This document shows, piece by piece, positions 18,305 through 43,945 of a stretch of 64,000 nt of DNA. Under the pieces are notes generated by a model. The model was given only the letters and a program-made list of their open reading frames with translations. It had not been told where the DNA came from and did no database searches. This DNA is from Gammaproteobacteria bacterium (GTDB lineage: Bacteria > Pseudomonadota > Gammaproteobacteria > Eutrophobiales > Eutrophobiaceae). The stretch is from the NCBI GenBank assembly GCA_947480335.1, contig CANKCB010000001.1:124001-188000 (forward strand). The letters run 5' to 3'. How positions within the stretch are numbered: the stretch's first letter is position 1; each line of letters begins with the position of its first letter. Both the position numbers and the translations under genes were made by a program.

Positions 18305-18322
18305 TTGTCATATTATCGTCAT
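18305..18322 (+). promoter_or_regulatory. Pho box upstream of pstS
   Basis: TTGTCAT-ATTA-TCGTCAT: two 7-bp units with 4-bp A/T spacer, matching CTGTCAT at 6/7 and 5/7. It lies about 60 bp upstream of the pstS start, a usual distance for PhoB activation. Confidence 0.7.
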
Positions 18323-20515: not shown

Positions 20516-20531
20516 AAGCTGATAAAAACGC

Positions 20532-24136: not shown

Positions 24137-24137
24137 T

Positions 24138-25352: not shown

Positions 25353-25412
25353 TTCTGGAATAAAGGGTCAATAGTGTGCGCCGGAAGTAGTCCGGTCAGA
25401 CAAACTAGGAGA

Positions 25413-25856: not shown

Positions 25857-25873
25857 GCTCCGGTTACAAAAAA

Positions 25874-26787: not shown

Positions 26788-27404
26788 GGGGCCGCGAATG
26801 TGGCATGACGTTGCTCGAAATACTGGTCGCGTTGACGATCTTTATTTTGCTCGCTGGTGCTGGTTATAGCGGATTGCAACAAGGGCTGAATATTGAAGAG
26901 AGTTTGCAACAGCAGCGAATATACTGGCGCCGACTGGATTCGGTTATGACATTGTTCCAGCAGGATTTCGATCAGGCACGCAACCTGTCTCAGCGCATGC
27001 CCTTGTCAGCGACAAGGGCCTTTGTTGGCAGTACCAGTCCGGATCCCTCCGCACAGGGCGAAATCCTGTTGTTTACCCGTGGAGGACATGCTGCTTTCGC
27101 GACTGGGGCGGTCAGTCCATACCAGAAAATTGCCTATCGTTACAGGGATGGTGCCCTGTACCGCGCAAGCTGGCCGAGATTGAATATGCCCGAAGTGTCA
27201 CAAGTCGATGAAGCAGAGTTATTGGGTCAGGTCTCTGCTATTAGTCTTAAATTCATGAATGCGGATCATCAATGGTTTGAGTACTGGCCGATAAGCACTG
27301 GCTCAGCGCAGCCACAAGGTTTGCCGGTATTGGTTGAGTTGACCCTGACGCTGGAGAATGACCAAAGTTACAAGCGAGTGTTTCATGTTGGCATCACCAA
27401 CTGA
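26784..27404 (+). CDS. gspJ: Minor pseudopilin GspJ
   Basis: 206-residue minor pseudopilin of the tip complex. It begins at a TTG at 26784 overlapping the gspI stop. The processing site is ECG-MTLLEIL, unusual in having Met rather than Phe at +1 of the mature protein. Conserved segments DSVMTLFQQDFDQARNL and the C-terminal beta domain match GspJ. Translational coupling is likely, because the TTG has no free ribosome binding site. Confidence 0.88.
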   Translation: MRGRECGMTLLEILVALTIFILLAGAGYSGLQQGLNIEESLQQQRIYWRRLDSVMTLFQQDFDQARNLSQRMPLSATRAFVGSTSPDPSAQGEILLFTRGGHAAFATGAVSPYQKIAYRYRDGALYRASWPRLNMPEVSQVDEAELLGQVSAISLKFMNADHQWFEYWPISTGSAQPQGLPVLVELTLTLENDQSYKRVFHVGITN

Positions 27405-28338
27405 AAGATTTCGCCGGCAACGTGGTGTGGCGTTGATTACGATCTTGTTGATCGTTGCAATACTGACGGCAATTGTGAGTCGAGTCAGTCTGTCCAACCA
27501 GATCTGGGTCAGGCAGGTCAGCAATGGTAACGCTTTGGCGCAGGCGGATCAGGCAACCCGGGCTGCCCGGTACTGGGTGGCCGATATTCTGGAGCAGGAC
27601 AAGAACAATTTTGATGCGCGGACGGAAGTTTGGGCTAGACCATTACCACCTATACCAGCCAGCTGGGGTATATTGATGGGCCGGGTGGAAGACATGCAAT
27701 CCAGATTTAATTTAAATAATCTAGTCAATACAGAAGGTAAGGTTGATAGCGTAGCGATGCAGCAATTTGAAAGAATATTGCGACTACTTGAACTGGAACC
27801 TGGTCTGGCCCAGGCGGTGATAGACTGGATTGATCCGGACACCAGTGTTTCTGGTCTTGGTGGTGCAGAAGACACCTTTTATATAGGTCAGGAAATACCT
27901 TATTTTACAGCAAACCGACCTTTTGAGGACGCGGCTGAACTGCGACTGGTACGCGGAATAGATAATCAGGCCTGGCAAAAACTGGAGCCGTATGTGGCAG
28001 CCTTGCCCGTACAAACTTCGATTAATGTGAATACTGCCAGTAGTGTAGTGTTACTGTCCGCACTGACAGACTGGGAGCTATCAGCCGGATCGATGGAACG
28101 GGTACAGCGGTGGGTGGAACAGGCAGAAAAAAAACCGGCAGAAGATATGAATTATTTTGTGGGTGAATTGCTGGGTGGAGCAGACAAGCCTGTTCCGCCA
28201 GGACTGGGTTCGGCTTCCAGTTATTTTACCGCACACACAGAACTGAATTTTGATAATGTAAATTACCGGATGTCGACGTTATATCAGCGTGATCAGGGCA
28301 GGGTTACTGTGCTGAGACAAAACCGGGAATTGCGCTGA
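27385..28338 (+). CDS. gspK: Minor pseudopilin GspK
   Basis: Largest minor pseudopilin, capping the pseudopilus; about 317 residues when started at ATG 27385, 20 bases inside gspJ. The prepilin site is RQRG-VALITILLIVAIL; GspK characteristically lacks Glu at +5, and this one does too. The helical domain (NLNNLVNTEGKVD, AVIDWIDPD) and the NVNTASSVVLLSAL motif fit the family. Confidence 0.92.
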   Translation: MLASPTERFRRQRGVALITILLIVAILTAIVSRVSLSNQIWVRQVSNGNALAQADQATRAARYWVADILEQDKNNFDARTEVWARPLPPIPASWGILMGRVEDMQSRFNLNNLVNTEGKVDSVAMQQFERILRLLELEPGLAQAVIDWIDPDTSVSGLGGAEDTFYIGQEIPYFTANRPFEDAAELRLVRGIDNQAWQKLEPYVAALPVQTSINVNTASSVVLLSALTDWELSAGSMERVQRWVEQAEKKPAEDMNYFVGELLGGADKPVPPGLGSASSYFTAHTELNFDNVNYRMSTLYQRDQGRVTVLRQNRELR

Positions 28339-28373
28339 CATCGCAGACAACAAAAAGGCCAACTCGGAATCTT

Positions 28374-29627
28374 ATGAGCATACGTGGTGAATATTGGTGG
28401 GTGTATTTGCAGGCCAGCCGTCTGGACTGGGTGCACTGTGTTGCCGGAGAAGGTTTGCCCGTGCAACAAGGCAGCTGTATACAACTTTCTGATTTGCCTG
28501 CACCGGCCGGGTCTACGCTGTTAATTTGTGTGCCGGGAGACAGGGCGCGTATACATAAGGTCAGATTACCTCTGAAAAATCGTAAACGTTTATTGGCCGC
28601 ACTGCCATTTGCTCTGGAAGATCAGTTATTGCATGAACCGAATTCTTACCATCTCGTACCGCTGCCCGCTGATCGTAGCTCGCAGCAGGTACCCGTGGTA
28701 GTGATGGAGCATGTCTGGTTGTCTGCTATTGTGGAAACTTGTCTGCATTCCGGTTGGCAAGTAGCCATGCTGGTACCCGATTATCTGGCCTTGCCAGAAC
28801 CCGAGCCGGACACCTGGTTTCTTGATGCAAGTAGCACCCCCTTGTTATTACGGACTCCGGGTTTGCAAGGAGCCGTATTGACGGGTGTGCTGATGCAAGA
28901 CTCGATTGGCACATTATCTCTGGTGCTGGAGCAAGCTGAAACCCTCCCCCAAAAGCTGAGGGTACGTGTGTGTGATCGCCAGCAATACCAGATTATCAGC
29001 AGCTGGTCCGAGCCTTTGGCTGCGCGCGACATACAACTGGATATACATCTGGAAGAGCGGAGCAGAACTGAATGGATGGCCGGGCTGCCCCAGCCAGCTG
29101 CGGCAGCGAACCTGTTAACAGGGACTTATTCCAGTAACAATCATATGGGACTAAGTACCGAAAAATACCGGATGACTATGATCCTGTTGACTGCATTGAT
29201 TGTTATCAGCGGGGCCCACTGGTTGGTACAAGGTTCGCGATTAAATACAAAATATACACAGTTACAACAATCGATAACTACAACTTACTTGCAGTTATTT
29301 CCCGGCACGAGAAATCTGGTTGATCCGCGTTTCCAGATGGAGCAACAGATCAAAAGCCTGAGGGAACGTCAACAACAAGGTGGCGCAGCAGATTTTTTGT
29401 CGCGACTGAACCAGCTGGCCGGTCAGATCGCTGCAGACCCGGACAATCAGGTACAAAAGATAGATTTTGATGGCAACACTATTTTACTGATAGTCAGTGT
29501 GGCAAATTATGAAGTATTGGAACGCTTGCAGGCGCGGTTGGCAAGCACAGGACCGGTACGTGTTGAAAATGCGGAACTGAAAAATGGCCGCGTTACAGGG
29601 CGAATTCGACTGGGTGGACAAGGATGA
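28374..29627 (+). CDS. gspL: Type II secretion protein GspL
   Basis: Inner-membrane protein linking ATPase GspE to the pseudopilus, 417 residues. The actin-like cytoplasmic domain covers about 1-260 (LPLKNRKRLLAALPFALEDQL is its most conserved block). One membrane helix lies near 265-285 (MILLTALIVISGAHWLV), then a ferredoxin-like periplasmic domain. The stop overlaps gspM. Confidence 0.9.
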   Translation: MSIRGEYWWVYLQASRLDWVHCVAGEGLPVQQGSCIQLSDLPAPAGSTLLICVPGDRARIHKVRLPLKNRKRLLAALPFALEDQLLHEPNSYHLVPLPADRSSQQVPVVVMEHVWLSAIVETCLHSGWQVAMLVPDYLALPEPEPDTWFLDASSTPLLLRTPGLQGAVLTGVLMQDSIGTLSLVLEQAETLPQKLRVRVCDRQQYQIISSWSEPLAARDIQLDIHLEERSRTEWMAGLPQPAAAANLLTGTYSSNNHMGLSTEKYRMTMILLTALIVISGAHWLVQGSRLNTKYTQLQQSITTTYLQLFPGTRNLVDPRFQMEQQIKSLRERQQQGGAADFLSRLNQLAGQIAADPDNQVQKIDFDGNTILLIVSVANYEVLERLQARLASTGPVRVENAELKNGRVTGRIRLGGQG

Positions 29628-30133
29628 TACAGATTGGAAAATATCAGGCCTGGTGGGATCAACGAGCCCGCCGTGAAAAGACAGTACTGATCTGTGGTGC
29701 CGTGTTGGTCTTATGTGTGTGCATCTGGTTAATCATGGAGCCGTTAATTCTTCAAAGACAACGGATGATCGCAGAACTGCCGAAGCTGGAACAGGATCTG
29801 GCCTGGATGCAGGATAACGTCGATCAGGTCAACCGTCTCCGTGGAGGTAATAATGCAGCAACAACGGGCAAGACAGCACTTTCGATTGCACTGGTCGAAG
29901 AAATTATGCGGGATGCCGGAGTGCATGAACAAGTCAGTGAATTACGACCAACCTCTGGCCAGGGTGTAATGGTTAAATTCAGCAAGGTAGCCTATCCGCA
30001 ACTGATGGATTTCCTGTGGCGACTGAAGAACAAGGCAAAGGCACGAGTCACGCTGGCCAGTATCAGTCGTTTGCAGGATCAGGCGGGCATGGTCGAAGCG
30101 AGCCTGTCACTGGGATCTGATGAGAATCAATGA
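29624..30133 (+). CDS. gspM: Type II secretion protein GspM
   Basis: 169-residue bitopic inner-membrane protein with short cytoplasmic N-terminus (WWDQRARREKTVL), one helix (ICGAVLVLCVCIWLIMEPLI) and a periplasmic ferredoxin-like fold. It partners GspL; both overlaps are ATGA junctions. Confidence 0.9.
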   Translation: MIQIGKYQAWWDQRARREKTVLICGAVLVLCVCIWLIMEPLILQRQRMIAELPKLEQDLAWMQDNVDQVNRLRGGNNAATTGKTALSIALVEEIMRDAGVHEQVSELRPTSGQGVMVKFSKVAYPQLMDFLWRLKNKAKARVTLASISRLQDQAGMVEASLSLGSDENQ

Positions 30134-30915
30134 CAGCATACAGCATGCGTTTATGTGTCACCGGCCTGGTGATCTTTCTGCTCACTCTGGTTGTTTATTT
30201 TCCTGCAGACCGCGCGTCCCATTTCCTGAGCGCTTACATTCCTGAAACAGTAATCTGGCAGAAGCTGGATGGCACGCTGTTCGCGCCGACGTTTCACAAC
30301 ACGACTCTGCTGATTACCGATGGACGCCGCTTGCAGCTGGACAGGATACATCTACATCTTTTTAAAATGCCATTGTTTGCCGGTCAGATTAAGTTTCAGT
30401 TTGATGTCGAAGTGGGTGATGGGCAAATCCATGGAACAGCTATATTTAATAAGTCCAGCTGGCAAATTCCAAAACTGGAAGGTGATATAGCTCTGGTGAG
30501 CTTGACTAATATCGCCCCTGAAATGGTAATTGCCGGTGTGGGTGGGCGAGCGATATTCAAGGGTAGTCGTATTGCAGGAGATTTACAGGGCAGGTCAGTC
30601 ACAGGCCAGCTTGATCTGATGATCGAATCCTTGCAACTTGGCATGTTGAACAGTGAAAAGCCTGTGGGTAGCTACATGCTTGTCTTGCAAGGAACAGAGG
30701 ATAAAGGTATTCACGGCACACTGAATACCAAACCTGCAGAGGCGCAGTTATCTGTTCAGGGACAGTTGGCACTAGACCTTAATTTACATGACATCCATTT
30801 CGAAGGCAGGGCTGGTGCGACAGGGAGTGCTACAGATGCTGTAAGAAGTTTATTACCCTTGCTGGGTAATATGGAGAGTGATCAGGCAAATATTGTATGG
30901 CACACCAGACTCTGA
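30130..30915 (+). CDS. gspN: Type II secretion protein GspN
   Basis: 261-residue GspN with a single N-terminal membrane segment (LCVTGLVIFLLTLVVYFPADRA) and a beta-rich periplasmic domain. It is an accessory component found only in some T2SS operons. Last gene of the operon. No gspO (prepilin peptidase), gspA, gspB or gspS lies here, so pilD elsewhere probably processes the pseudopilins. Confidence 0.88.
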   Translation: MTAYSMRLCVTGLVIFLLTLVVYFPADRASHFLSAYIPETVIWQKLDGTLFAPTFHNTTLLITDGRRLQLDRIHLHLFKMPLFAGQIKFQFDVEVGDGQIHGTAIFNKSSWQIPKLEGDIALVSLTNIAPEMVIAGVGGRAIFKGSRIAGDLQGRSVTGQLDLMIESLQLGMLNSEKPVGSYMLVLQGTEDKGIHGTLNTKPAEAQLSVQGQLALDLNLHDIHFEGRAGATGSATDAVRSLLPLLGNMESDQANIVWHTRL

Positions 30916-31268
30916 GCTAAACAGGTATAAGTGTTACATCATCAAACATAATTCAAACCAGTATTTTCAGCTGATTTTTCACTACAAAGTACGACTCACG
31001 TAATCGTATTGTCATTTTTCATTAATCAATCTGTCACACGTCACCAATAGGATGTGCGCGTAAAGTCGGGCATGGGTAATTCACATTACCTTTTCCGGAC
31101 AAACCATAACTAATCCGGACACGGAATTTTGAGCATTAAAAAACTTGCAGATTACTTCTGTTGGATACATCCGGAACAGGATGCCGCATGCCAGCTCTTG
31201 ATGGGCATTAAACCAGTCAATACCAAAGATTTATATTTCACAATCATTACATTTAAGGAGAAATTTTC
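30916..31268 (+). promoter_or_regulatory. Regulatory region upstream of the TonB-dependent receptor
   Basis: 353 bp without a gene. TTGTCAT at 31009 and CTGTCAC at 31031 lie exactly 22 bp apart (two 11-bp Pho-box periods). TCCGGACA occurs twice, starting at 31094 and 31114. An AAGGAG ribosome binding site precedes the receptor ATG. No riboswitch core (cobalamin, FMN, TPP) was recognised. Confidence 0.5.
31009..31037 (+). promoter_or_regulatory. Pho-box-like repeats before the TonB receptor gene
   Basis: Units TTGTCAT (6/7), CATTAAT (poor) and CTGTCAC (perfect for the second-unit consensus) fall on an 11-bp period, at about 31009, 31020 and 31031. The distance to the start codon is about 230 bp, so the transcription start would be well upstream of the ATG. 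Confidence 0.5.
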
Positions 31269-33818
31269 ATGCTAAATCGGTCGCGTCTACATGCCACGCT
31301 TATGTTGGGAGGTCTTGCTTTGAGCATGATCGCCTCACCGGTGTTTGCACAGAAAGCAGATCTGGGGTTGGAAGAAATTGTCGTCACCGCTACCAAGCGT
31401 CAGACCAATCTTCAGGAAACGCCAGTCGCAATATCAGTCATGGACTCAAAGTTCGTCGCTGACCGTCACATCCAGAGCCTGCTCAACCTTGGCGATGGTG
31501 CGATTCCCTCGCTGCGCGTCGCGACTTTCGAAGCGCGCCAGTCTGCACTGACCGTCGGTATCCGTGGTATTGTTCCGTTTGATCAGAACCAGACCGCACG
31601 CGATGCAGGTGTTGGCGTTTATATCGATGGTGTCTATCTCGGCCGTTCGCAGGGTCTGAATGCGGCATTGTTTGACGTTGAGCGCATAGAGGTGCTGCGC
31701 GGACCGCAGGGTTCATTGTTTGGCCGCAACACTGAAGGTGGTGCAGTCAGTATCGTCACCAAGGAACCTACCGGTGAATTCGATGGCAAGGTGAATGCTG
31801 GTTTCGGCAATTACGGCAGCTATGAAGGCCAGGCGCATGTCAATCTCCCGTCATACAGCAATCTTTCGATCAAGTTGGATGGCGTTACCCAGAAACAGGA
31901 CGCAACGACAAAGAATCCGATGGAAGGGGAATATGGCTGGAACTATTTCGACCGTATCGGTGGTCGTATGAGCGCACTGTGGGAGCCGACCGATAATTTC
32001 TCAGCGTTGTTGGCGTTTGATAAAGCAACTGACAAGAACACGCCGTTCTACAGCCAGCTGATTAATTATAATCCGAATAGCCTGCCAGTCGGCGTCTACA
32101 ACGGAACAGTCAGCTCGTCCAACGTACCGAGTCTGGTAGCGCCGACGGGTTCGGCTTGTCCCTGTATCGCGCCGCTTTCACCGCTGGTCTTTGTCAGCGG
32201 CAATAAGCGGATGGACTCCGCCACCGTCGGTGTGCCGCAGGATGCCAGTGTCGACAAGACCTACGGTTTTTCGGGAACGCTGAAATACCAGTTTGCCGAT
32301 GATGTCGAGCTTCGCTCTATCACCGCATGGCGTGGAGTAGACACAATGCAGTGGGACAACTCGGGTGGCCCGGAGCGCACTCCTGCGTTTGTTCCTGGCA
32401 TCGGCACTTCAACCGCTGGTGTTCCCAATGGATTGTTTAGCCGCTACAGCCTTTCGAAACTGACCCAGGATCAGTTCAGTCAGGAATTCCAGATAGTCGG
32501 CAGTGTTCCCATGTTCGACTATGTACTCGGTGTGTACTACTTCAAGGAAGATGCGTTTGAAAAGGCAGCCACGCCGAGTACGAACCGTTGGAATGCGAAC
32601 GGTACCGGTTACACCATACTCAGCGCGTACGCCGGGGATGGTGCTCTTGGCCCATACTCTGCTTCGCCACCGAACCAAATCATCCCTGTCAACTCTGCCT
32701 ACAATCAAGGCTGGGCGGAAGAAGACTGGTTGCTCGGGCGCCGTAGCTGGGCAACAACAAAGTCCTATGCTGGCTTTGCAAATGCAACCTGGCATGCAAC
32801 AGATGTTCTGCACCTGACGGTTGGCGCGCGCTACACCAAGGACAAGCGAGACTTCTTCGCAAACGTGGTCAACGGCGTATATGTTCCGGAACGCAACATC
32901 AAGTTTAACAAGGGGACTATCGACCCGTCAGTGACGCTGGCCTGGGATGCAACCGATGAAGTCAATCTGTACGGCAAGTTTTCGACCGGTTACCGTGCTG
33001 GCGGTGTGAATTCACGTTCGTCAGGTACGCTGTCCTTCGGTCCGGAGAAGGTCAAGGCCTACGAGATCGGTGCAAAGACGGACTTTTTCGACGATAGGGT
33101 ACGTCTGAACCTTGCCGGTTACATCATGGACCGCACCAATACCCAGGTTGACTTTGATTATGTGGACAATTCTGCCCGTGCAGGATTGCACACACAGGAA
33201 ACGCTGAATATAGCGGATACATCAAAGCTGAAGGGTGTCGAGGCGGAGCTGACGGTTCAGGCTACCGACTATCTGACACTGGGTGCTTCCTACGCGTACA
33301 CCAAGGACCATATTCCTGATGCACCGAATCCGCTGCACTTCACTAACAACGGTCCAATTACCGTTGGCACCACCCCACTGTGTACTTCATTTTCCGGTGC
33401 CACTCTTACCGCGAATGCTGGTACCTGCGACAGGTTTGGCTTCATAACACCTGTATTCGTGGTGTTTACACCGAAGAATGCCTATTCAGTCTTCGCCGAC
33501 TATGAGGTAGCAGCCGGGTTCGCCGGTGATGGAGCCAATTTCCGCATCCATCTAGATACAAACTATGCTGGCGAGCAATACAGCTTCCAGGATGAGAGCG
33601 TGTTGACCGAATCGAGTCTCATCGTCAATGGAAATATTACACTGGCTGATATTCCGGTCAGTGCGAATCAGACGATGACCCTCTCACTGTGGAGTCGCAA
33701 CCTGCTTGACGAAGATCATATCTACCGCCGGTCTAATGCGAACAATGCCACACTGGGCGCCTACGGAAATTTCAATGCGCCGCGTACCTTTGGTGCTACG
33801 GCCAGCTTCGATTTCTAA
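31269..33818 (+). CDS. TonB-dependent outer-membrane receptor
   Basis: 849-residue receptor importing a scarce ligand across the outer membrane with TonB-ExbBD energy. Signal peptide ends near VFA-Q; LEEIVVTATKR near residues 34-44 is the TonB box region; the plug contains GVYIDGVYLGRS and VERIEVLRGPQGSLFGRNT; the 22-strand barrel ends in ATASFDF. The sequence style resembles the expanded receptor families of sphingomonads and marine gammaproteobacteria. The ligand is unknown; Pho-box-like units upstream hint at an organophosphate, but that is inference. Codon choice looks more GC-ending than in neighbours, so transfer is possible. It has its own promoter region and terminator. Confidence 0.93.
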   Translation: MLNRSRLHATLMLGGLALSMIASPVFAQKADLGLEEIVVTATKRQTNLQETPVAISVMDSKFVADRHIQSLLNLGDGAIPSLRVATFEARQSALTVGIRGIVPFDQNQTARDAGVGVYIDGVYLGRSQGLNAALFDVERIEVLRGPQGSLFGRNTEGGAVSIVTKEPTGEFDGKVNAGFGNYGSYEGQAHVNLPSYSNLSIKLDGVTQKQDATTKNPMEGEYGWNYFDRIGGRMSALWEPTDNFSALLAFDKATDKNTPFYSQLINYNPNSLPVGVYNGTVSSSNVPSLVAPTGSACPCIAPLSPLVFVSGNKRMDSATVGVPQDASVDKTYGFSGTLKYQFADDVELRSITAWRGVDTMQWDNSGGPERTPAFVPGIGTSTAGVPNGLFSRYSLSKLTQDQFSQEFQIVGSVPMFDYVLGVYYFKEDAFEKAATPSTNRWNANGTGYTILSAYAGDGALGPYSASPPNQIIPVNSAYNQGWAEEDWLLGRRSWATTKSYAGFANATWHATDVLHLTVGARYTKDKRDFFANVVNGVYVPERNIKFNKGTIDPSVTLAWDATDEVNLYGKFSTGYRAGGVNSRSSGTLSFGPEKVKAYEIGAKTDFFDDRVRLNLAGYIMDRTNTQVDFDYVDNSARAGLHTQETLNIADTSKLKGVEAELTVQATDYLTLGASYAYTKDHIPDAPNPLHFTNNGPITVGTTPLCTSFSGATLTANAGTCDRFGFITPVFVVFTPKNAYSVFADYEVAAGFAGDGANFRIHLDTNYAGEQYSFQDESVLTESSLIVNGNITLADIPVSANQTMTLSLWSRNLLDEDHIYRRSNANNATLGAYGNFNAPRTFGATASFDF

Positions 33819-33946: not shown

Positions 33947-34981
33947 TTAGTATTGAATGCCGATCATTATGGATCCAAAACTGTCCTTGTCTTGCTGGAG
34001 TTCAAATTCACGACCCCGCCAGACTACATTGAAAGAAAAATATACAGGCAGACTTGACTGACCGAATCCAAGTACGACACCCGTTGCCAGATCATGAACG
34101 AAGGGCCGTTTTTTCACAGACATACTGTCTACAAATGTATTACCGTCCAGAAAAATATTCTGTGCAACAGCGCGACCCTGAATTTCGGCAAACCACATCC
34201 AGTCAAATTCCTGTTTACGGATCGGTATATAGCTGTTACTACCTGACAGTCCAGGCTGGATCCTCAGTGGGACATCCTGTTCAGGCAGATAATTACCAAT
34301 GCGGAATACTGTGCCGATTCCAGCATCCGTAAAAGCATTGCCCAAGTTAAATCCAGTTCGAGGTATTAAATCTGATTTTAGTGAGTCCAGTTCGAACAGG
34401 GTCAGAAACCAGCTGCGAGAGTAACGAATCAGTAGAGTCGGCTCATTATGTAACTGATTGTCCCATCCGCCAGGTTTCGGATCGTCGACAAGTTTATGTA
34501 TGAGCTTTTGTCCCTGTTCAGCCAGAGCAACCGGACCGACTATGCCGAGATTAACGGCGATATCTTCGATCATTCCGGGTTGGTGTGAACTTACCGACAA
34601 CTCGCCATATATCCATCCGGCATAGGGTCGATCTTCCGGCACAGGATTGCTGGTCAGGAAATATTCCGGCGTATAGATGTTTTGACCGAAGGCGATTTCA
34701 AATTGGCGTGACTGCGGATTTGAATCGAATAAAGAGAAATAATCGGGCCATATAAACCAGCCGTCTACATTTTTTTGTTGCAGACTGTGGGCTATCCTGA
34801 TTCCATTCGTATAGTGTCGATCCTGTCCGTCAGGGGCATAAATGTCGTTTTCGGCAATGACGGAATAATATTGTGGACGATTCTGATCTGACTGGACCGG
34901 GTTAGCAACAACTCCCGGGGATATGCAGATCATCACAGAGTAATACAAATAATATTCTGGTGTGGAACGGCCAGGCATCAT
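33947..34981 (-). CDS. LpxR-like outer-membrane lipid A 3-O-deacylase (DUF2219)
   Basis: 344-residue outer-membrane barrel of the DUF2219/LpxR family, which removes the 3-O acyl chain of lipid A. ENDIYAPDGQDRHYTNGI near residues 45-62 carries the conserved Asn, Asp and Thr; RPYAGWIYGELSV and LIHKLVDDPKPGGWDNQL are the next family blocks, the latter with the putative catalytic His. The C-terminus ends in an aromatic residue (IGIQY) as expected for a barrel. Hydrophobic N-terminus (about 8-28) acts as signal peptide. Divergent from the small secreted protein across 95 bp holding a Pho box. Activity on lipid A is inferred from family only. Confidence 0.82.
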   Translation of the reverse strand: MMPGRSTPEYYLYYSVMICISPGVVANPVQSDQNRPQYYSVIAENDIYAPDGQDRHYTNGIRIAHSLQQKNVDGWFIWPDYFSLFDSNPQSRQFEIAFGQNIYTPEYFLTSNPVPEDRPYAGWIYGELSVSSHQPGMIEDIAVNLGIVGPVALAEQGQKLIHKLVDDPKPGGWDNQLHNEPTLLIRYSRSWFLTLFELDSLKSDLIPRTGFNLGNAFTDAGIGTVFRIGNYLPEQDVPLRIQPGLSGSNSYIPIRKQEFDWMWFAEIQGRAVAQNIFLDGNTFVDSMSVKKRPFVHDLATGVVLGFGQSSLPVYFSFNVVWRGREFELQQDKDSFGSIMIGIQY

Positions 34982-35009
34982 CTCAGGTAATTTCCGTCTG
35001 TATCAGTCA

Positions 35010-35027
35010 TTGTCATATCACTGTAAT
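35010..35027 (+). promoter_or_regulatory. Pho box in the LpxR-like/secreted-protein divergent promoter
   Basis: TTGTCAT-ATCA-CTGTAAT: two 7-bp units (6/7 each to CTGTCAT) with a 4-bp spacer. It lies 29 bp from the LpxR-like start and 50 bp from the secreted-protein start, so it could serve either gene. Confidence 0.6.
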
Positions 35028-35076
35028 AATGAAAACGTATAAAGTCATTTATATATTCAATTATGACAGAGTAATA

Positions 35077-35520
35077 ATGCGTACAAGAATCCTGATTTTT
35101 ACCATATTGTTGACTGCTGTACAGGCTGTGTTTGCTGGCAGGCCAGATAGTCTCCGTTCAGCAGATGTCATCAGCACTCAAGTAATAACCCACTGTGAGG
35201 TTCCTGTCGAGTTCAGTGACAGGCATCAGTATGTCGCGCTCGAAGTGACCCGGGAACTGGCTCAGCCCGAATCGATACAACTTACGCTGGTAAGGCAGTC
35301 AGATAATAATTACGACGTATTGGTCGGTGGAGATTCTGTAAAAGCGAAGGGTAGTCTGGACAAGCTGCCGTCAGGTGAAAACCCTGTGCATCTGGTGTTT
35401 AACAATGGTTCCGGCATGGAACATTTTCTGTTTATGCTGAATCCGGATGGGTCAGGAGAACTGATGTGGTCGAGCGCTACAGTGAGCGCTCTGACCACAT
35501 GTACTGCAGGTTTAGATTAA
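35077..35520 (+). CDS. Small secreted protein of unknown function
   Basis: 147 residues from ATG 35077, with a clear signal peptide (MRTRILIFTILLTAVQAVFA, cleaved before Gly). Upstream in-frame ATGs at 34960 and 35029 would overlap the divergent promoter or spoil the signal peptide. The mature part has two cysteines (THCEVPV and TTCTAG) that could form a disulfide. I recognise no family. It shares a promoter region and Pho box with the LpxR-like gene, suggesting an envelope role in phosphate shortage. Confidence 0.7.
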   Translation: MRTRILIFTILLTAVQAVFAGRPDSLRSADVISTQVITHCEVPVEFSDRHQYVALEVTRELAQPESIQLTLVRQSDNNYDVLVGGDSVKAKGSLDKLPSGENPVHLVFNNGSGMEHFLFMLNPDGSGELMWSSATVSALTTCTAGLD

Positions 35521-35540: not shown

Positions 35541-35891
35541 TTATTCGGCTGCCAGTTTGGCGATACCACGGCGGGCGACGGTTTTTACTGACTCGGATTT
35601 TCCGGATGCCAGATCGGCATAAGGATTGGCTTTTAGTGTCAGGATCTTGTTATAGGTATCCTGCGCCTTAACGTTATCACCGGTCTTGTTATAGACAAAG
35701 GCCAGATTTAGCAGCGCATATGGGTCATTCGGGTTTTCAGCGAGTATGGCCAAAAGCCCCTGCTCAGCATCAGCAAACTTCCCTTTGGCAATTGCTTCAG
35801 CTTGATAGGAAGTATTGTCTTCAGCATAGCCAGCAACAGCAAAGCCGGCCAAAGAAATGAGTACCAACACTGTATTGATTAATTTGTTCAT
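35541..35891 (-). CDS. Small periplasmic TPR protein
   Basis: 116-residue protein with a signal peptide ending near YAE and about two tetratricopeptide repeats (AEQGLLAILAENPNDPYALLNLAFVYNKTG, positions about 42-72, then AQDTYNKILTLKANP). Partner unknown. Pho-box-like repeats in minus orientation lie 69-86 bp upstream of its start, so it probably belongs to the phosphate regulon. Confidence 0.75.
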   Translation of the reverse strand: MNKLINTVLVLISLAGFAVAGYAEDNTSYQAEAIAKGKFADAEQGLLAILAENPNDPYALLNLAFVYNKTGDNVKAQDTYNKILTLKANPYADLASGKSESVKTVARRGIAKLAAE

Positions 35892-36251
35892 GGTTCAAAT
35901 ACCTCCAGAATATTGACAGTAAAAGAGACCTTGTAAAGTCCAGGTAACAGAACACATTTGTTACAGTTTTATTACAATTGTGACTATTATATTACTTTCT
36001 CTGAATTGTATTGTTATATTTTTATTACAATCTAGCGGTAACTATAGCCTCTGCAACTATATAATGTCACGCGTCAGTTGGGGTACTGGTTTGACGGAAA
36101 GCTTCACTGATGAACAGGTCATGTAGATACATCATCAGTTAACAGATAGACCTTATTTGTAATCCGGATGGCAATGACAAATTCAGAAGCAAATTATTCA
36201 ATGTTCAGGTTACGTAACATTTATGTCATTAAATACACCTAGACTTGCACA
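35892..36251. promoter_or_regulatory. Divergent regulatory region between the TPR gene and pstC
   Basis: 360 bp, AT-rich. It contains Pho-box-like sites at 35960-35977 and 36013-36030, both best read on the minus strand. For pstC only weak matches appear (ATTTATGTCATTAAA near 36220). pstC has no obvious ribosome binding site. An ATG at 36065 opens a 20-codon frame without a ribosome binding site. Confidence 0.45.
35960..35977 (-). promoter_or_regulatory. Pho box upstream of the TPR gene
   Basis: Minus strand reads TTGTAAT-AAAA-CTGTAAC, with a further TGTTCTG unit 11 bp downstream. The 11-mer TTGTAATAAAA recurs at 36020-36030. The CTGTAA variant matches the second unit at 35021. Confidence 0.55.
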
Positions 36252-38531
36252 ATGTCAGTGAACAATACAGAAAGCTACTTGCCCGATTTTAACAATGCGG
36301 CAGCGCAACGATATCGTCATTATCGCAAGATAAAGGACGTTTTTATCCGTTATTTGATGGCGATTGGCGGTATTGGTGTAATCGCTGCAATTGTAATGAT
36401 TGCACTGTATCTGGTCTGGGTAGTGATCCCACTGTTCATGCCCGCACGACTGGATCAGTTGGCTTCGTATGCGATACCTGGGGGTAGTGACAAGTCAACC
36501 ATCTATTACGCCATGGAAGAACAGCATGAAATTGGTATGCGTGTGATGGATGGCGGCAACATAGTCTTTTTCAATACGCAAACTGGTGCGTTAATTGGCA
36601 AGGAGTCTGTGCTGCGAGACAAGCGACGATCTGTGACAGCCTTTGCAGTTGGTGACCCTACCCAAAGAGTAATGGTGTTTGGTCTGGATAATGGTACGGT
36701 TTTATTGCGTGGGCATCAGTACTCTGTGACTTATCCGGACAATCAAAGACTGATAACTCCCTCTGTATTCAATTTGTTCGATGGTAAGGCCGTAGTAATC
36801 GACTCCAGACACAAACCTCTGGTGCTGGTCTCGGCGCAATCGGATGAGACTCAGACTACTGTTGCGGCGGTAACCAACGATAACCGTCTATTGCTGGTGA
36901 ATCTGGCGGTGCAAACCGGGTTTCTCGGTGACAGTTCGACAGTAGAAAGAACCGAACAGTCTATTCAAATTAACAGTAGTGCAAAAATCACCCATCTGGT
37001 TCTGGATGTGGAGCAGCGCGATCTGTATTTTGCTGATGATAAAGGCTGGTTGTATTTCTACGATATCAGTGACAAGTCAGCTCCTCAGCTGGTTGAACGA
37101 GTCAGGACAAGTCATAACAACGCCGCAATTACTGCATTGCAGTTTCTGAGTGGAGGTATCTCTGTACTGGTTGGTAACAGTGATGGAACGATTACACAAT
37201 GGTTCCCGGTCCGCGATGGTAGTAACAGTTATACCCTGCAAAATGTGCGTAGTTTTGATTCGCAGAGTTCTGCCATTCTGGCCATAGCACCAGAATATTT
37301 TCGCAAGGGTATGCTCGCGCTGGATAAAGATGGCAATCTCGGCGTCTATCATGCAACAGCACACCGTACCGTCAAGCTGGTGCAGGTCAATGCCGGCCCG
37401 GATAGCCTGTTGGCTATCGCTCCCAGGGCCAATGCTGTGCTGGTAGAGGGCAAGGATAAAACCTTGCAGTTCTGGAAGCTGGAAAACAATCATCCAGAAG
37501 TATCCTGGAGCTCGCTCTGGGGCAAGGTCTGGTATGAAAGCCGTGATCGTCCCGAATATATCTGGCAGTCGTCTTCTGCCAGTAGTGACTTTGAGCCAAA
37601 GTTCAGTTTGACGCCGCTGGCCTTTGGTACATTAAAAGCCTCATTTTATGCAATGTTATTTGCGGTTCCGTTAGCAATTATGGGTGCAATCTATACTGCC
37701 TATTTCATGTCAGCGGGTATGCGTAATCTGGTAAAACCAACGATTGAAATTATGGCTGCACTACCCACAGTGATATTGGGATTTCTGGCAGGATTATGGT
37801 TTGCGCCGATAGTAGAGGCGTATCTGCCGGCGATGTTTCTGATTTTTATTGCTGTGCCACTTTCAATACTGTTCACCGCCTGGGCATGGTACAAGTTGCC
37901 GCAGTTTATCCGTCTGAAAGTGCCTGCCGGCTCAGAAGCGATGATTTTGATTCCGGTGATCATGCTGGTGACAGCAGTCGTATTTGCGGCGAGCAAACCA
38001 ATCGAATTATGGTTGTTTGGCGGTAATCTGCCGTTGTGGATGGGTGAACATCTGGGTATTACCTATGATCAGCGCAACTCCTTTATCGTGGGTATAGCGA
38101 TTGGTTTTGCCGTCATCCCCACCATATTCTCCATCAGTGAAGATGCCATCTTTGGTGTACCCAGACACCTGACTACAGGCTCTCTTGCCCTGGGTGCCAC
38201 ACCGTGGCAGACGATGGCCAGAGTGATTTTGCTCACCGCCAGCCCCGGCATTTTTTCAGCCATCATGATAGGACTGGGACGTGCCATTGGCGAGACGATG
38301 ATCGTGGTAATGGCAACCGGGAATACCGCCATTATGGATTTTAATATGTTCCAGGGATTTCGCGCCCTTTCGGCAAATATTGCGGTCGAGATGCCTGAAT
38401 CAGAGCTGGGTAGCACGCATTATCGTGTATTGTTTCTGGCCGGATTGGTATTGTTTATGGCCACCTTTATGTTTAACACCGTTGCTGAAGTGGTCAGGCA
38501 ACGACTACGTACGAAATACAGCACATTATGA
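36252..38531 (+). CDS. pstC: Phosphate ABC transporter permease PstC, long form with beta-propeller insert
   Basis: 759 residues, more than twice the E. coli length (319). After a first membrane helix (about 34-62) comes a periplasmic block of about 350 residues with WD-like repeats (DNRLLLVNLAVQT, VLVGNSDGTITQWF, LVEGKDKTLQFWKL). The permease core starts near residue 455 (LAFGTLKASFYAMLFAVPLAI). The ABC-contact EAA-type loop is in [22 protein letters not shown]. Long PstC proteins are known from Pseudomonas. The stop overlaps pstA (ATGA). Confidence 0.94.
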   Translation: MSVNNTESYLPDFNNAAAQRYRHYRKIKDVFIRYLMAIGGIGVIAAIVMIALYLVWVVIPLFMPARLDQLASYAIPGGSDKSTIYYAMEEQHEIGMRVMDGGNIVFFNTQTGALIGKESVLRDKRRSVTAFAVGDPTQRVMVFGLDNGTVLLRGHQYSVTYPDNQRLITPSVFNLFDGKAVVIDSRHKPLVLVSAQSDETQTTVAAVTNDNRLLLVNLAVQTGFLGDSSTVERTEQSIQINSSAKITHLVLDVEQRDLYFADDKGWLYFYDISDKSAPQLVERVRTSHNNAAITALQFLSGGISVLVGNSDGTITQWFPVRDGSNSYTLQNVRSFDSQSSAILAIAPEYFRKGMLALDKDGNLGVYHATAHRTVKLVQVNAGPDSLLAIAPRANAVLVEGKDKTLQFWKLENNHPEVSWSSLWGKVWYESRDRPEYIWQSSSASSDFEPKFSLTPLAFGTLKASFYAMLFAVPLAIMGAIYTAYFMSAGMRNLVKPTIEIMAALPTVILGFLAGLWFAPIVEAYLPAMFLIFIAVPLSILFTAWAWYKLPQFIRLKVPAGSEAMILIPVIMLVTAVVFAASKPIELWLFGGNLPLWMGEHLGITYDQRNSFIVGIAIGFAVIPTIFSISEDAIFGVPRHLTTGSLALGATPWQTMARVILLTASPGIFSAIMIGLGRAIGETMIVVMATGNTAIMDFNMFQGFRALSANIAVEMPESELGSTHYRVLFLAGLVLFMATFMFNTVAEVVRQRLRTKYSTL

Positions 38532-40201
38532 TTTCTGTAAGATTAAAAAATTGGCTCGATTCCGGAACACCATATATCTGGCTGAATGCTGGTGCGGTCA
38601 GTGTATCGGTACTACTTGTTGTAGGTCTGTTAACCCTGATTGCAGTACGAGGTCTGGGGCATTTCTGGCCCAAGGCCATTGCCGAATTTGAGTACACCGA
38701 TGCGGCCGCTAGCATCACGCGTATCGTTGGAGAAATTGTTGAACAGGAAAATGTACCAAGGGCGAGGCTAGCGGAAATCGACGCACGCATTCCCGATAAT
38801 GCAGAGTATATCGACCGTTACCTGATTAAGACGGGTAATCGTGATCATTTAGGAATGGATTTTCGTTGGGTGGTGGCTACCGGAATGTCCGACCTGGCTT
38901 ATCCAGAGGATCTGGTCGCCATTGAGCGACGTGAATGGGGCAATATGTATGGTTCTTTACTCGCACTTAAAATAGATGGAAAAGAAGATGCCAGCGCTGG
39001 TTCGCCAGTCTGGGAAAGATTCCAGCAAGCCATAGCATCTACCCAGTTGTTACATGATCAGATTGAATATATCGAGAAAGACCTGATCGGGGACATCAAT
39101 TACAGAATTGAACGTCTGAGATTAAGACAAAACCGGCTGGCAATGTCTGGAACGAACAACCAACTGGCACTGGAGCAGATAAAACAGGAACAGCAAACAC
39201 TGCAACAGCAATTTGACAGTTATACGGAAGAACTGTCCGGTCTATACGCTCAGCTGGCACAGTATAGCATTACAGTGAGAATCTCGGACGGTACCGAGGT
39301 GGAGTTATCGTTAGGTCAGGTGGTGCGTGCTTATCAACCCAACGCCATGTCGATCTTTGGCAAGATACATTTCTACATCGAAAAACTCTGGGAGTTTGTT
39401 TCAGATGAGCCGCGTGAGGCCAATACCGAGGGTGGTATCTTTCCGGCAATTTTCGGTACCGTGATGATGGTATTAATCATGTCAATTTTGGTCACCCCGT
39501 TTGGTGTGATTGCCGCTGTTTACTTGCGTGAGTATGCAAAGCAAGGGATGTTGGTCCGTATTATACGAATTGCAGTAAATAACCTAGCAGGTGTGCCTTC
39601 TGTCGTTTATGGGGTGTTTGGTCTCGGGTTCTTTGTCTACTTTATCGGTGGCAATATTGACGAACTGTTTTTTTCCGACACCTTGCCTTCACCTACATTC
39701 GGTACCCCCGGATTATTATGGGCCTCACTGACATTGGCAATTTTGACAGTTCCAGTTGTTATCGTATCGACCGAGGAAGGGCTGTCACGGGTGCCCCGTT
39801 CCATACGTGAAGGCAGTCTCGCTCTCGGGGCGACCAAGGCGGAAACATTGATGCGAACTGTATTGCCTATGACGGCATCGGCCATGATGACCGGCTTGAT
39901 TCTGGCTATTGCCCGCGCTGCGGGTGAAGTAGCGCCATTAATGATGGTCGGCGTGGTCAAACTTGCGCCATCATTACCACTGGATGGTCATATGCCCTTC
40001 CTGCATCTGGAACGGAAATTCATGCATTTGGGATTTCATATCTATGATGTCGGCTTCCAGAGCCCGAATGTCGAGGCAGCCAGGCCGTTGGTATTTGCTA
40101 CCGCAATGCTACTGGTGTTAATAATTATTTTTTTAAACTTGGCAGCTATCCATATTAGAAATAAGCTAAGGGAGAAGTACCGTGCTTCAGAGCAGCATTA
40201 G
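38528..40201 (+). CDS. pstA: Phosphate ABC transporter permease PstA, long form
   Basis: 557 residues. One helix (about 17-40), then a periplasmic domain of about 260 residues with a Gln-rich coiled coil (around 185-235: [17 protein letters not shown]), then the permease core from about 300 ([20 protein letters not shown]). The ATPase-contact loop is [23 protein letters not shown]. Paired with long PstC, so the two probably form an enlarged periplasmic assembly around PstS. The stop lies 20 bp before the best pstB start. Confidence 0.93.
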
Positions 40202-40220
40202 CCAGATGAGCAGGAATGAT

Positions 40221-41072
40221 ATGAACCAACAGGAAGAACAACAGCGCAATGTAAGAACACATGCTATTGATCCGGATATTATCAATAAGCCCTCAAACCG
40301 GGCAATGCTGGATAATGAAAAAATCTGCATTGAAGTCAATAATTTCAGTTTTTATTATGGTCACAATCAGGCGTTGAAGTCTGTCAATCTGAAAATTCCT
40401 GAAAAGCGTGTAACTGCATTTATTGGTCCGAGTGGTTGCGGCAAATCAACGCTATTGCGTTGCTTCAATCGGATGAATGATCTGATTGATCATGTGCGTG
40501 TTGAAGGCGAAGTTACCTTGCATGCCCAGAATATATTCGACAAGTCAGTCAATGTGTCGGAATTACGCCGGCGGGTCGGAATGGTGTTCCAGAAACCAAA
40601 TCCATTCCCAAAGTCTATTTATGAGAATGTGGCCTATGGTCTGCGTATACAGGGTATCAAGAACCGTCGGGTGCTGGATGAGGCCGTGGAAAAGTCCTTA
40701 CGCAGTGCGGCGTTGTGGGAAGAAGTAAAAGACCGTCTTGATGCGAATGCAATGGGCTTGTCGGGTGGGCAGCAACAGCGTCTGGTTATCGCCAGGGCTA
40801 TCGCAATCGAGCCGGAAGTATTATTGCTCGACGAGCCAGCTTCCGCGCTGGATCCTATCTCCACACTGAAAATTGAGGAGCTGATTTACGAGCTCAAATC
40901 AAAATATACTATCGTCATTGTGACGCATAATATGCAGCAGGCCGCGCGCGTTTCAGACTATACTGCCTATATGTATCTGGGTGAATTAATCGAGTTTAAT
41001 GATACCAGCACGCTGTTTACCAAGCCCTGGCAAAAAATGACCGAGGACTATATTACCGGAAGACATGGTTAG
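40221..41072 (+). CDS. pstB: Phosphate ABC transporter ATPase PstB
   Basis: ATPase subunit, 283 residues from ATG 40221, chosen for the AGGA site five bases upstream; the in-frame GTG at 40182 would overlap pstA. Walker [13 protein letters not shown] loop [12 protein letters not shown], signature LSGGQQQRL and Walker [13 protein letters not shown] are all present. N-terminal 45 residues precede the family core. Works with PhoU in signalling to PhoR. Confidence 0.97.
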
Positions 41073-41093: not shown

Positions 41094-41801
41094 ATGACCA
41101 GTATCAGTCAACACATATCCAAACAGTTTGATAATGACCTTGAAAATATCCGTAGCCAGGTTCTGGCCATGGGTGGACTGGTCGAACAACAATTGACCGG
41201 CTCTATCACGGCATTGATTGAGTCCGATCTGGAAATTGCCGAGAATGTAATCAAGTCTGAATTCAACGTGAACCGGTTTGAGGTGTCTATTGATGAGGAA
41301 TGTACCCGAATACTGGCTAAACGACAGCCGGCAGCAGTCGATTTGCGACTGATCATGGCCGTTATCAAGACGATTACCGACCTGGAACGAATTGGGGACG
41401 AGGCTGAAAAAATTGCGAGAATGGCAGTCAGGCTTTCGGAAAAGAATGCGCCCAAAGCCTATTACATAGGTCTGAAAGCGATGGGTAATCTGGTTAATCA
41501 CATGGTGCATGATGCGCTGGACGCGTTTGCACGAATGGATTCGAGAGCAGCGCTCAGTGTCGCCAGCAAGGAGCCTACCTCGGATGATCAGTATGTGGCT
41601 ATACTCAGGCAACTGATCACTTATATGATGGAAGATCCGCGTAACATCACCAGCTCAATGGATGTAATCTGGAGTGCGCGTGCGATGGAGCGTATCGGTG
41701 ACCATGCCAGAAATATTTGCGAGTATGTAATCTATTTTGTTGAGGGTAAGGATGTGCGCCATATCAGCATTGAGGAAATGGAGAAGGAAGTAAATTCGTA
41801 A
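41094..41801 (+). CDS. phoU: Phosphate signalling regulator PhoU
   Basis: 235-residue helical protein with two PhoU repeats, each holding a metal-binding E/D-x3-D-type motif (RIGDEAEKIARMAVRL and RIGDHARNICEYVIYF). It links PstB state to PhoR and restrains uptake. It follows pstB by 21 bp. Confidence 0.96.
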   Translation: MTSISQHISKQFDNDLENIRSQVLAMGGLVEQQLTGSITALIESDLEIAENVIKSEFNVNRFEVSIDEECTRILAKRQPAAVDLRLIMAVIKTITDLERIGDEAEKIARMAVRLSEKNAPKAYYIGLKAMGNLVNHMVHDALDAFARMDSRAALSVASKEPTSDDQYVAILRQLITYMMEDPRNITSSMDVIWSARAMERIGDHARNICEYVIYFVEGKDVRHISIEEMEKEVNS

Positions 41802-41875: not shown

Positions 41876-43945
41876 ATGGGTAGCACCAATCTAAACAGGC
41901 CAGAGCTCTATATTAATCGTGAGCTCAGCCTTCTCGAATTTAACCGCAGGGTAATCGCCCAGGCCAGTGACGAAACTGTTCCATTGCTGGAACGGTTGAG
42001 GTTTCTGTGCATCGCCAGTACCAATCTGGACGAATTTTTTGAAATTCGGGTTTCCGGGATCAAACAACAAATCAAATATGGTTCGGTACAGTCAGGTCCT
42101 GATAATCTTTCGGCGACAGAGGTATTCAATCGAGTCAATCAGGTCGCACATGAGCTGGTTCAGGAACAATACCGGGTCCTGAATGATCTGATTACCCCGG
42201 CTTTGGCAAAGCAGAAAATACGGGTGCTGCGGCGCGACGACTGGATACCCAGTATCGATAGATGGGTGAAACGTTATTTTAACAGCAACGTTTTACCGGT
42301 ACTCAGTCCAATCGGGCTGGATCCGTCGCATCCGTTTCCTCGCGTACTGAACAAGAACCTGTATTTCATCATTTCGCTGGAGGGCAAGGATGCTTTCGGC
42401 CGGGAAACCGATCTGGCCATCGTACAGGCGCCTCGATCCCTGCCGCGCGTTGTCCCGGTCACCTCCGAACATACCGGTGGGCCAAACGATTTTATACTGT
42501 TGTCATCAATAATAGATGCACACGTCAATGATTTGTTTCCAGGAATGAAAGTTACTGGCTGTTACCAGTTTAAGGTAACCCGGGATGGTGACTTGTTTGT
42601 AGACAGTGAGGAAGTTGACGATTTATTGCGTGCTCTGGAAGGTGAACTGCCGTCACGACGATTCAGTGATGCCGTGAGACTGGAAGTTGATGATAATTGT
42701 CCTGAAGCATTGAGTGCCTTTTTATTACAAAAATTTGATTTGCATGAATCCGATCTGTACAAGGTAAACGGCCCGGTCAATTTGCACAGGCTGGATGCCA
42801 TCCTGGATCTGGTTAATCGACCGGAGCTGGTGTATCCGGGATTCACACCCGATATTCCTCCCAGACTGCAAAAAAGTGAGAATATTTTTGATACGATGCG
42901 CAACGGCGATATTCTGCTCTATCACCCGTTCCAGTCATTTGCGCCAGTGGTCGATTTCCTGAAACAGGCGGCAAATGATCCAAATGTATTATCAATCAAG
43001 CAAACCCTTTACCGAACCGGAGTTGATTCTGCCATTGTGGAGGCATTGAAAGATGCCGCGCGTATCGGCAAGGAAGTAACGGTCGTCATTGAACTGCTTG
43101 CGCGCTTTGATGAAGAAACCAATATTGAAATGGCGAACGATCTGCAGGAAGTCGGGGCGCATGTCGTCTATGGTATTGTTGGTTTCAAGACCCATGCCAA
43201 AATGTGTATGGTAGTACGTCGGGAAGGCAGGACATTACGACGCTATGTGCATCTGGGTACCGGCAACTATCATTCCCGTACTGCCCGTATTTATACGGAC
43301 TATGGACTGTTTACCTGTGACAAGGATATTGGTCTGGATGTAAACCGGTTATTCCTGCAGTTAACAGGCCTGGGTAAGGCTGGCAAGTTAAAGAAACTGT
43401 TGCAGTCTCCCTTTACCTTGCTCAAGCGTATGCTTGACTTGATTGATCGCGAGGCACGGTATGCACTGGACAAGAAGCCAGCCAGAATTATTCTGAAGAT
43501 GAATGCGCTGGTTGATCCGGACCTGATACGTGCACTGTATGCCGCTTCACAGGCTGGAGTAAAAATCGATTTGATTATCCGTGGCATTTGTTGTTTGCGT
43601 CCGGGTATCAAGGGTGTGTCAGAAAATATCCACGTACGATCGATTGTGGGTCGGTTTCTTGAACATTCACGAGTATTTTATTTTTACCATGGTGGCGATG
43701 AATTGCTGTTTTGTTCCAGTGCCGACTGGATGCCAAGAAACATGCATAACCGCGTTGAGACCTGCTTCCCGATAGATGAAAAACGCCCAAGGGATCAGGT
43801 AATGACTTATGGCCTGAATAATTATCTGGCGGATAATTGTCAGGCATGGATTATGCAGGGTGATGGCACCTATAAGCGACAGAAACCCGGTAACAGTAAA
43901 CCGAAATCTGCTCAGCAAATTGCACTGGAATATTTTTGCGAATAA
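41876..43945 (+). CDS. ppk1: Polyphosphate kinase 1
   Basis: Synthesises polyphosphate from ATP; 689 residues like E. coli. The N-terminal domain starts INRELSLLEFNRRV. Catalytic histidines are visible in GFKTHAKMCMVV (about 440) and GRFLEHSRVFYF (about 597), with HLGTGNYHSRTARIYTDYG between them. Located 74 bp after phoU on the same strand, so uptake and storage may be co-expressed. Convergent with ppx. Confidence 0.96.
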   Translation: MGSTNLNRPELYINRELSLLEFNRRVIAQASDETVPLLERLRFLCIASTNLDEFFEIRVSGIKQQIKYGSVQSGPDNLSATEVFNRVNQVAHELVQEQYRVLNDLITPALAKQKIRVLRRDDWIPSIDRWVKRYFNSNVLPVLSPIGLDPSHPFPRVLNKNLYFIISLEGKDAFGRETDLAIVQAPRSLPRVVPVTSEHTGGPNDFILLSSIIDAHVNDLFPGMKVTGCYQFKVTRDGDLFVDSEEVDDLLRALEGELPSRRFSDAVRLEVDDNCPEALSAFLLQKFDLHESDLYKVNGPVNLHRLDAILDLVNRPELVYPGFTPDIPPRLQKSENIFDTMRNGDILLYHPFQSFAPVVDFLKQAANDPNVLSIKQTLYRTGVDSAIVEALKDAARIGKEVTVVIELLARFDEETNIEMANDLQEVGAHVVYGIVGFKTHAKMCMVVRREGRTLRRYVHLGTGNYHSRTARIYTDYGLFTCDKDIGLDVNRLFLQLTGLGKAGKLKKLLQSPFTLLKRMLDLIDREARYALDKKPARIILKMNALVDPDLIRALYAASQAGVKIDLIIRGICCLRPGIKGVSENIHVRSIVGRFLEHSRVFYFYHGGDELLFCSSADWMPRNMHNRVETCFPIDEKRPRDQVMTYGLNNYLADNCQAWIMQGDGTYKRQKPGNSKPKSAQQIALEYFCE

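Follow-up and report, generated by a model that had tools for sequence, protein, structure and literature searches.

PhoB recognizes the sequence CTGTCAT-A(AT)A(TA)-CTGT(CA)A(CT) (excerpt of PMC3465305), and the pho box of Escherichia coli usually lies near the -10 element, where it replaces the -35 (excerpt of PMC4971064). According to a passage of PMC6358824, PhoB/R alters the LPS core in E. coli through WaaH and EptC. Outer-membrane hydrolases are raised via PhoBR, namely pldA in UPEC and apeE in Salmonella (excerpt of PMC12351708), and in Vibrio cholerae more vesicles are released when phosphate is limiting, partly via PhoB (excerpt of PMC13157583). Control of the lipid A deacylase gene lpxR has been reported by MicF and, in Yersinia, by PhoP/Q and RovA (excerpt of PMC4651636), and EHEC lpxR is under Ler and Pch (excerpt of PMC7649339). 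Among the matches listed in open-licence PMC text, no paper linking PhoB to lpxR was found.

The locus described here can be compared with these systems. Its putative promoter resembles PhoB-activated promoters of E. coli in carrying an 18-bp two-unit direct repeat as a -35 substitute, but unlike them it precedes a lineage-restricted orphan gene with a divergent lpxR. The LpxR protein encoded beside it shares its family (PF09982), predicted fold and catalytic residues with Salmonella LpxR (PDB 3fid); its Pho setting differs, as no PhoB-, PstC- or PstS-like neighbour was found within the stored flanks of 80 named LpxR loci. WaaH and EptC change inner-core residues whereas LpxR acts on lipid A acyl chains, LPS being what they have in common. 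PldA and ApeE belong to other families and are induced, while the lpxR gene of this locus is, judging from the arrangement of its promoter region, more likely blocked or untouched.

A Pho box within a Pho cluster

In the window, by which we mean the whole 64,000-nucleotide stretch of DNA that was analysed, the following features are found around the box.

16195-16902, + strand: phoB (TIGR02154 over cut-off)
16924-18252, + strand: phoR (TIGR02966 over cut-off)
18305-18322, + strand: Pho box before pstS (score 17.47, 0.12 expected)
18383-19354, + strand: pstS (TIGR02136 over cut-off)
19595-30915, + strand: type II secretion genes separating pstS from the TonB receptor (gspC identified by NCBIfam, the rest named by eye)
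31009-31037, + strand: three Pho-like half-sites (TTGTCAT, CATTAAT and CTGTCAC) upstream of the TonB receptor
31269-33818, + strand: TonB-dependent receptor (PF00593 and PF07715 over cut-off)
33947-34981, - strand: lpxR, predicted LpxR-family outer-membrane lipid A deacylase (PF09982)
35010-35027, + strand: Pho box, two direct half-sites (TTGTCAT and CTGTAAT, separated by ATCA) directed at the orphan gene
35038-35043, + strand: -10-like hexamer TATAAA, separated from the box by exactly 10 bp (proposed promoter of the orphan; identical hexamer and spacing in G009)
35077-35520, + strand: orphan gene, 147 residues, signal-peptide-like N-terminus (by eye)
35541-35891, - strand: small TPR protein, matching PF14559 and PF13431 above cut-off and preceded by a Pho box of its own
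35960-35977, - strand: Pho box TTGTAATAAAACTGTAAC before the TPR gene (score 20.66, best in the window)
36212-36229, + strand: Pho-like box upstream of pstC, ending 22 bp before the ATG and with TAGACT at 10 bp
36252-38531, + strand: pstC, large form of 759 residues (name based on its place and on a PF00528 match slightly below cut-off, 24.8 versus 26.4 bits)
38528-40201, + strand: pstA (PF00528 over cut-off)
40218-41072, + strand: pstB (PF00005 over cut-off)
41094-41801, + strand: phoU (PF01895 over cut-off)
41876-43945, + strand: ppk
43970-45472, - strand: ppx-like exopolyphosphatase

The order is phoB-phoR-pstS, the type II secretion genes, the TonB receptor, lpxR, the orphan, the TPR gene and pstCAB-phoU-ppk-ppx. 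With phoBR and pstS on one side and pstCAB-phoU-ppk on the other, the box is thus located inside the Pho cluster itself, a stronger Pho setting than in the sequence-only reading, which did not mention these genes.

That reading had proposed a two-unit Pho box in a 95-bp divergent promoter, and both elements are present. The 18-mer on the + strand at 35010-35027, TTGTCATATCACTGTAAT, consists of two 7-bp direct repeats like CTGTCAT with 4-base spacing, and it is enclosed in the 95-bp gap (34982-35076) between the lpxR-like ORF and the orphan ATG at 35077. Using a weight matrix that was set beforehand from the E. coli PhoB consensus (given in the excerpt of PMC3465305), the site scored 20.14, the second highest value anywhere in the 64-kb window, both strands included, and sites scoring at least 20.14 arose by chance with a mean of 0.005 in 200 dinucleotide shuffles of the window. 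The box of the TPR gene ranked first, that of pstS third and that of pstC fourth. A loose pattern (up to three mismatches in 13 specified bases) matched 24 times in the window against 21.2 expected, so that this class is not above chance; 35010-35027 was its sole site with no mismatch, but the pattern had been copied from the same site. The strict pattern YTGTMAYNNNNNTGTMAY matched seven times in the 2.42-Mb genome, compared with one match for a control made of the pattern backwards. Two of the seven fall within 1 kb here (35010-35027 and the TPR-gene box), two are inside long ORFs, one lies upstream of a gene whose product matches PhoX (E 2.5e-34), one is near a contig end, where inspection by eye suggests that it might run into the beginning of a lipoprotein-like frame, and the last lies between two genes that by eye resemble those of an NtrC-type regulator and a signalling protein. 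Given these data, 35010-35027 is almost certainly a PhoB site, to which PhoB would be expected to bind. The site before the PhoX alkaline phosphatase-like gene (L160, G000:C2:203493-203510) marks an independent likely member of the Pho regulon.

Other parts of the cluster were examined in the same manner. The pstC box scores 14.60, which alone is not above chance (0.8 expected), but in G009 and G010 the equivalent position carries a box scoring 16.43. Its position 22 bp before the ATG, together with TAGACT at 10 bp in three genomes (window 36212-36252; L106 7895-7935; L144 330-370), predicts a leaderless or nearly leaderless pstC transcript. PstC itself is unusually long (759 residues), with weak, below-cut-off matches to beta-propeller models, and its relatives occur in 36/53 family genomes at an E threshold of 1e-30. 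No site upstream of the window's phoB was among the 25 best matrix scores; G009 has strong boxes just upstream of phoB. The single 18-mers before the TonB receptor score 12.07 and 11.08, neither above chance alone. Pho-like half-sites precede TonB-dependent receptors at the same cluster place in the window (31009-31037), L106 (14703-14720) and L144 (6745-6762). The G009 and G010 receptors look different from that of the window (only the G009 one was scanned, giving no Pfam match), and a large lipoprotein-like gene lies downstream of the receptor in both genomes. The Hxc type II secretion system of Pseudomonas aeruginosa is tied to the Pho response; compared with it, the secretion genes here lie between pstS and the TonB receptor. 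Counterparts of gspC, gspD and gspN are found in the same cluster of G009, and these genes may export phosphatases under phosphate control.

The two sides of the divergent gap

The orphan protein has a signal-peptide-like start, by eye, which agrees with its earlier description as a secreted protein, and has no Pfam family over cut-off. The gene is present in 5/53 family genomes, with homologues of 53% identity in G009 and 50% in G010 and weak ones in G015 and G012, and no homologue was found in the 368 other genomes of a class sample that holds few family members. It adjoins pst genes in this genome (G000), G009 and G010 and lies near phoBR-pst in G015. Its fold model, built from four sequences, has a mean pLDDT of 42.9, too low for a confident fold.

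On this side of the gap, the box has the placement of a -35 substitute, with TATAAA at 10 bp, kept in G009. The G000 and G009 sequences share a block comprising the box, the 10-bp spacer and TATAAAG in which 32 of 36 columns are identical, against 7 of 27 on the lpxR-side flank (9 of them gaps in G009), the block edges for both counts having been picked after the alignment was seen. Conservation of the site, which the sequence-only reading had suggested as a check, is therefore found in this pair for the box and TATAAA and is missing on the lpxR side. In G010 and the distant G012, TAAAGT lies exactly 10 bp from the orphan box, and the pstC boxes have TATAAG (G007), TATGCT (G008) or TAGACT (G000, G009 and G010). 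Overall, a hexamer matching TATAAT at 4 or more of 6 positions occurs at exactly 10 bp for all nine boxes facing the orphan or pstC, which are related and not independent (random expectation 0.087 per site), and for none of the four that face lpxR or its remnant. Only one of seven other oriented boxes (pstS, three TPR and three TonB receptor) reaches 4/6 at this distance, so 10-bp spacing is no general rule here. No box was found for the G015 orphan among the seven best of an 11-kb stretch, and a scan of viral contigs for the promoter block found nothing. As judged from orientation and spacing, the box very probably serves the orphan gene.

The same site had been read as common to both genes. 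However, in all four genomes that carry lpxR or its remnant in the cluster, the box is directed at the orphan or pstC and not at lpxR; in G007 and at the remnant of G008 it faces pstC, which there is the divergent neighbour of lpxR. Placement as a -35 substitute for lpxR is not seen: 0/4 reach 4/6 at 10 bp and only 1/4 (G007) does so at 9 to 11 bp. The lpxR-side hexamers at 10 bp match TATAAT in 0, 1, 1 and 1 of 6 positions (G000, G009, G007 and the G008 remnant, respectively), and the best over 9 to 11 bp in 2, 3, 4 and 3, the G007 hexamer being TATCAC at 9 bp. With this orientation, no lpxR-side -10 at 10 bp and a box that persists without lpxR, a shared site is not supported. The best box-like scores directed at lpxR are 7.24 (window), 8.31 (G009) and 10.09 (G007); for maxima of mononucleotide-shuffled upstream sequences, the median is 3.5 and the 95th percentile 10.5. 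The G007 18-mer, near that percentile, overlaps the box and is followed by TATTAT 8 bp on, so a two-way PhoB promoter is most conceivable in G007. The box of G007 is itself weak (13.77, third in a 20-kb stretch).

The lpxR start codon is 28 bp from the box edge in the window and 19 and 16 bp in the other orthologues, so the transcript probably begins in or near the PhoB site; later in-frame starts are present in G009 and G007. We also considered that lpxR might be too close to the box to be activated. This argument is weakened by the pstC box, which lies 22 bp from the ATG in three genomes, so that a short distance is compatible with activation. Read towards lpxR, the downstream half-site in reverse complement could serve as a poor -35 (ATTACA in the window and G009, GTTACA in G007), with the poor to fair -10 candidates GATACA, ATTAAT and TATTAT after 17, 16 and 18 bp, respectively. 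The G009 and G007 pairs were listed by a promoter scan at 8 and 9 of 12, while the window pair, read by eye, scores 7, its GATACA being weak (3/6). The window has a second pair overlapping the box, ATGACT-17-TACAGT, with a score of 8. Several pairs with equal or better scores lie further upstream in each genome, so the choice of an lpxR promoter is not forced. These pairs give a slender footing for proposing repression of lpxR.

LpxR and its lineage

The data support the assignment of the lpxR product to the LpxR family. The protein matches PF09982 with an E value of 2.7e-85 (286.6 bits versus a cut-off of 26) and keeps the catalytic residues N45, D46, T58, Q158 and H162. In ten aligned members, N45, D46, Q158 and H162 are invariant and T58 is T or S; Q and H are in register with 3fid, while N, D and T were assigned visually from the motif. 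These positions are numbered N9, D10, S34, Q118 and H122 in an excerpt of PMC3486919, according to which alanine changes at them abolished the activity of Yersinia LpxR on E. coli lipid A. The window protein has T in place of the active-site S. Its fold model (mean pLDDT 73, pTM 0.74) gave 3fid_A as the first match (Foldseek E 6.5e-18, TM 0.68 by query and 0.77 by target). The protein is thus a credible predicted deacylase, which would remove 3'-acyloxyacyl chains.

LpxR was found at E 1e-10 or better in 21/53 family genomes, and widening the search from family to order added no genome to these 53. Close relatives of the window protein occur only in G009 (61%) and G007 (47%), both beside pst; other family copies are 31-36% identical to it, among the matches listed. 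At the corresponding position, G008 carries a remnant of 100 residues (35% identical to residues 16-101, E 5.6e-7), and G010 has a co-oriented gene there instead of lpxR but retains the box. The cluster-linked gene is therefore intact in three, a remnant in one and absent in one of the five genomes of the genus. A family-type LpxR is present in G007, G008 and G010 and was not found in G009. The family-type copy of this genome (L001, G000:C9:58266-59297) contains an in-frame TAG, for which an assembly error is possible.

A tree built by a quick method from 53 chosen rows (22 of 80 named loci, 8 of 9 class loci, 20 family copies and the three cluster copies) groups the three cluster-linked LpxR together (SH-aLRT 100), well apart from a clade formed by the 20 family copies (96). 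The nearest row to the cluster-linked proteins is L156, on a long branch, and 14 LpxR matches outside this genome in a class-wide sample of 369 genomes are 33-42% identical (E 1e-44 or better). A lateral origin of the cluster-linked lpxR would be the simple reading of this topology.

Among 111 other LpxR loci (80 and 31), a box scoring above 11 occurs only at the two cluster-linked orthologues. The best upstream box-like score was 10.92 for the 80 loci of named genomes, whose scan began at the match start and not at the start codon and covered fewer than 350 bases upstream of L047, L050, L066 and L099. In the 31-locus set, L011, with only 41 bases in view, is in effect outside the scan, and some genomes of the two sets may be the same organisms. 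None of the 80 loci has a PhoB-, PstC- or PstS-like neighbour in the stored flanks of up to 6 kb, some much shorter, and the Pho proteins of the window found only generic similarity (23-39% identity) at 100 loci (the 80 plus 20 with 1.5-kb flanks). PhoB/PhoR-like neighbours at L061 and L083 were rejected, as the regulators best fit OmpR and the kinases CpxA or EnvZ, with none over the PhoB or PhoR cut-off; these two LpxR loci with regulator matches carry OmpR/CpxR-like proteins, not PhoB. A general link between lpxR and Pho was thus not seen across LpxR loci outside the cluster.

How the box may act on its two neighbours

We somewhat favor a reading in which the orphan promoter is PhoB-activated and lpxR is a laterally acquired neighbor in the Pho cluster that, if regulated, is most likely blocked by PhoB. 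It builds on the box, its orientation, spacing, conservation and linkage, and on the separate lpxR lineage described above. Under phosphate starvation, PhoB on the box would recruit RNA polymerase to the orphan gene, the two direct half-sites replacing the -35 and TATAAA 10 bp downstream acting as the -10. The gene for the putative lipid A 3'-O-deacylase would have settled in the cluster by lateral acquisition, landing back to back with the PhoB promoter of either pstC or the orphan, depending on the relative. The lpxR promoter, if rightly guessed, overlaps the box, so PhoB would block it and not induce it. LpxR would then be made at plentiful phosphate and be off at scarce phosphate, if it is phosphate-controlled at all. 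Against this reading, lpxR lies beside pst in 4/5 genus genomes (one as a remnant), a linkage that could reflect selection for joint activation.

It is quite plausible, if short of an even chance, that lpxR is an indifferent neighbor, constitutive or under another regulator, and that only the orphan and pst genes respond to PhoB. The box is retained without lpxR in G010 and for the distant orphan in G012, and lpxR is elsewhere controlled by MicF, PhoP/Q and RovA, or Ler and Pch (excerpts of PMC4651636 and PMC7649339), but the start codon within 28, 19 and 16 bp of the box edge in three orthologues speaks against indifference.

The regulatory half of our favored reading, a two-way switch with lpxR repressed by PhoB, is a tentative proposal. 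Promoter-like pairs towards lpxR overlap the box in 3/3 intact orthologues, yet their hexamers are weak and were picked after the box was seen. Phosphate control of lpxR through linkage and promoter overlap is possible, and the sequence suggests repression at low phosphate as its sign, with no control about as likely. In its most specific form, which we regard as doubtful, the captured foreign lpxR would use its neighbor's PhoB operator as a -35, making one PhoB dimer a two-way switch.

It is rather unlikely that one box activates both genes and that lipid A is deacylated at low phosphate, a model in line with the sequence-only reading. The tight lpxR-pst linkage in the genus, the lpxR-directed box-like 18-mer of G007, followed after 8 bp by TATTAT, the divergent pairs of E. 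coli with a common putative PhoB site (excerpt of PMC3465305) and the PhoB-linked hydrolase genes pldA and apeE (excerpt of PMC12351708) would all fit such joint activation. It is countered by the box orientation, the lack of an lpxR-side -10 at 10 bp in 4/4 cases, the unconserved lpxR side in the one aligned pair (G000 and G009) and lpxR-directed scores that all stay below the shuffled 95th percentile. Finally, a chance match, for which the commonness of loose matches (24 found, 21 expected) might speak, is hardly credible and was rejected given the score (0.005 expected), the rarity of strict matches in the genome (seven), the cluster setting and conservation in G009.

Returning to the favored reading, the orphan gene is a clean new candidate for the Pho regulon. 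If the two-way switch is true, high phosphate would lead to trimmed lipid A, and low phosphate would turn on the orphan or pstC and leave lipid A fully acylated. The captured lpxR would then have replaced the family-type gene, whose copy here is interrupted and of which G009 yielded none. The locus offers a precise case in which lipid A acylation may depend on phosphate supply, and the sign predicted for it is the reverse of that in the joint-activation model.
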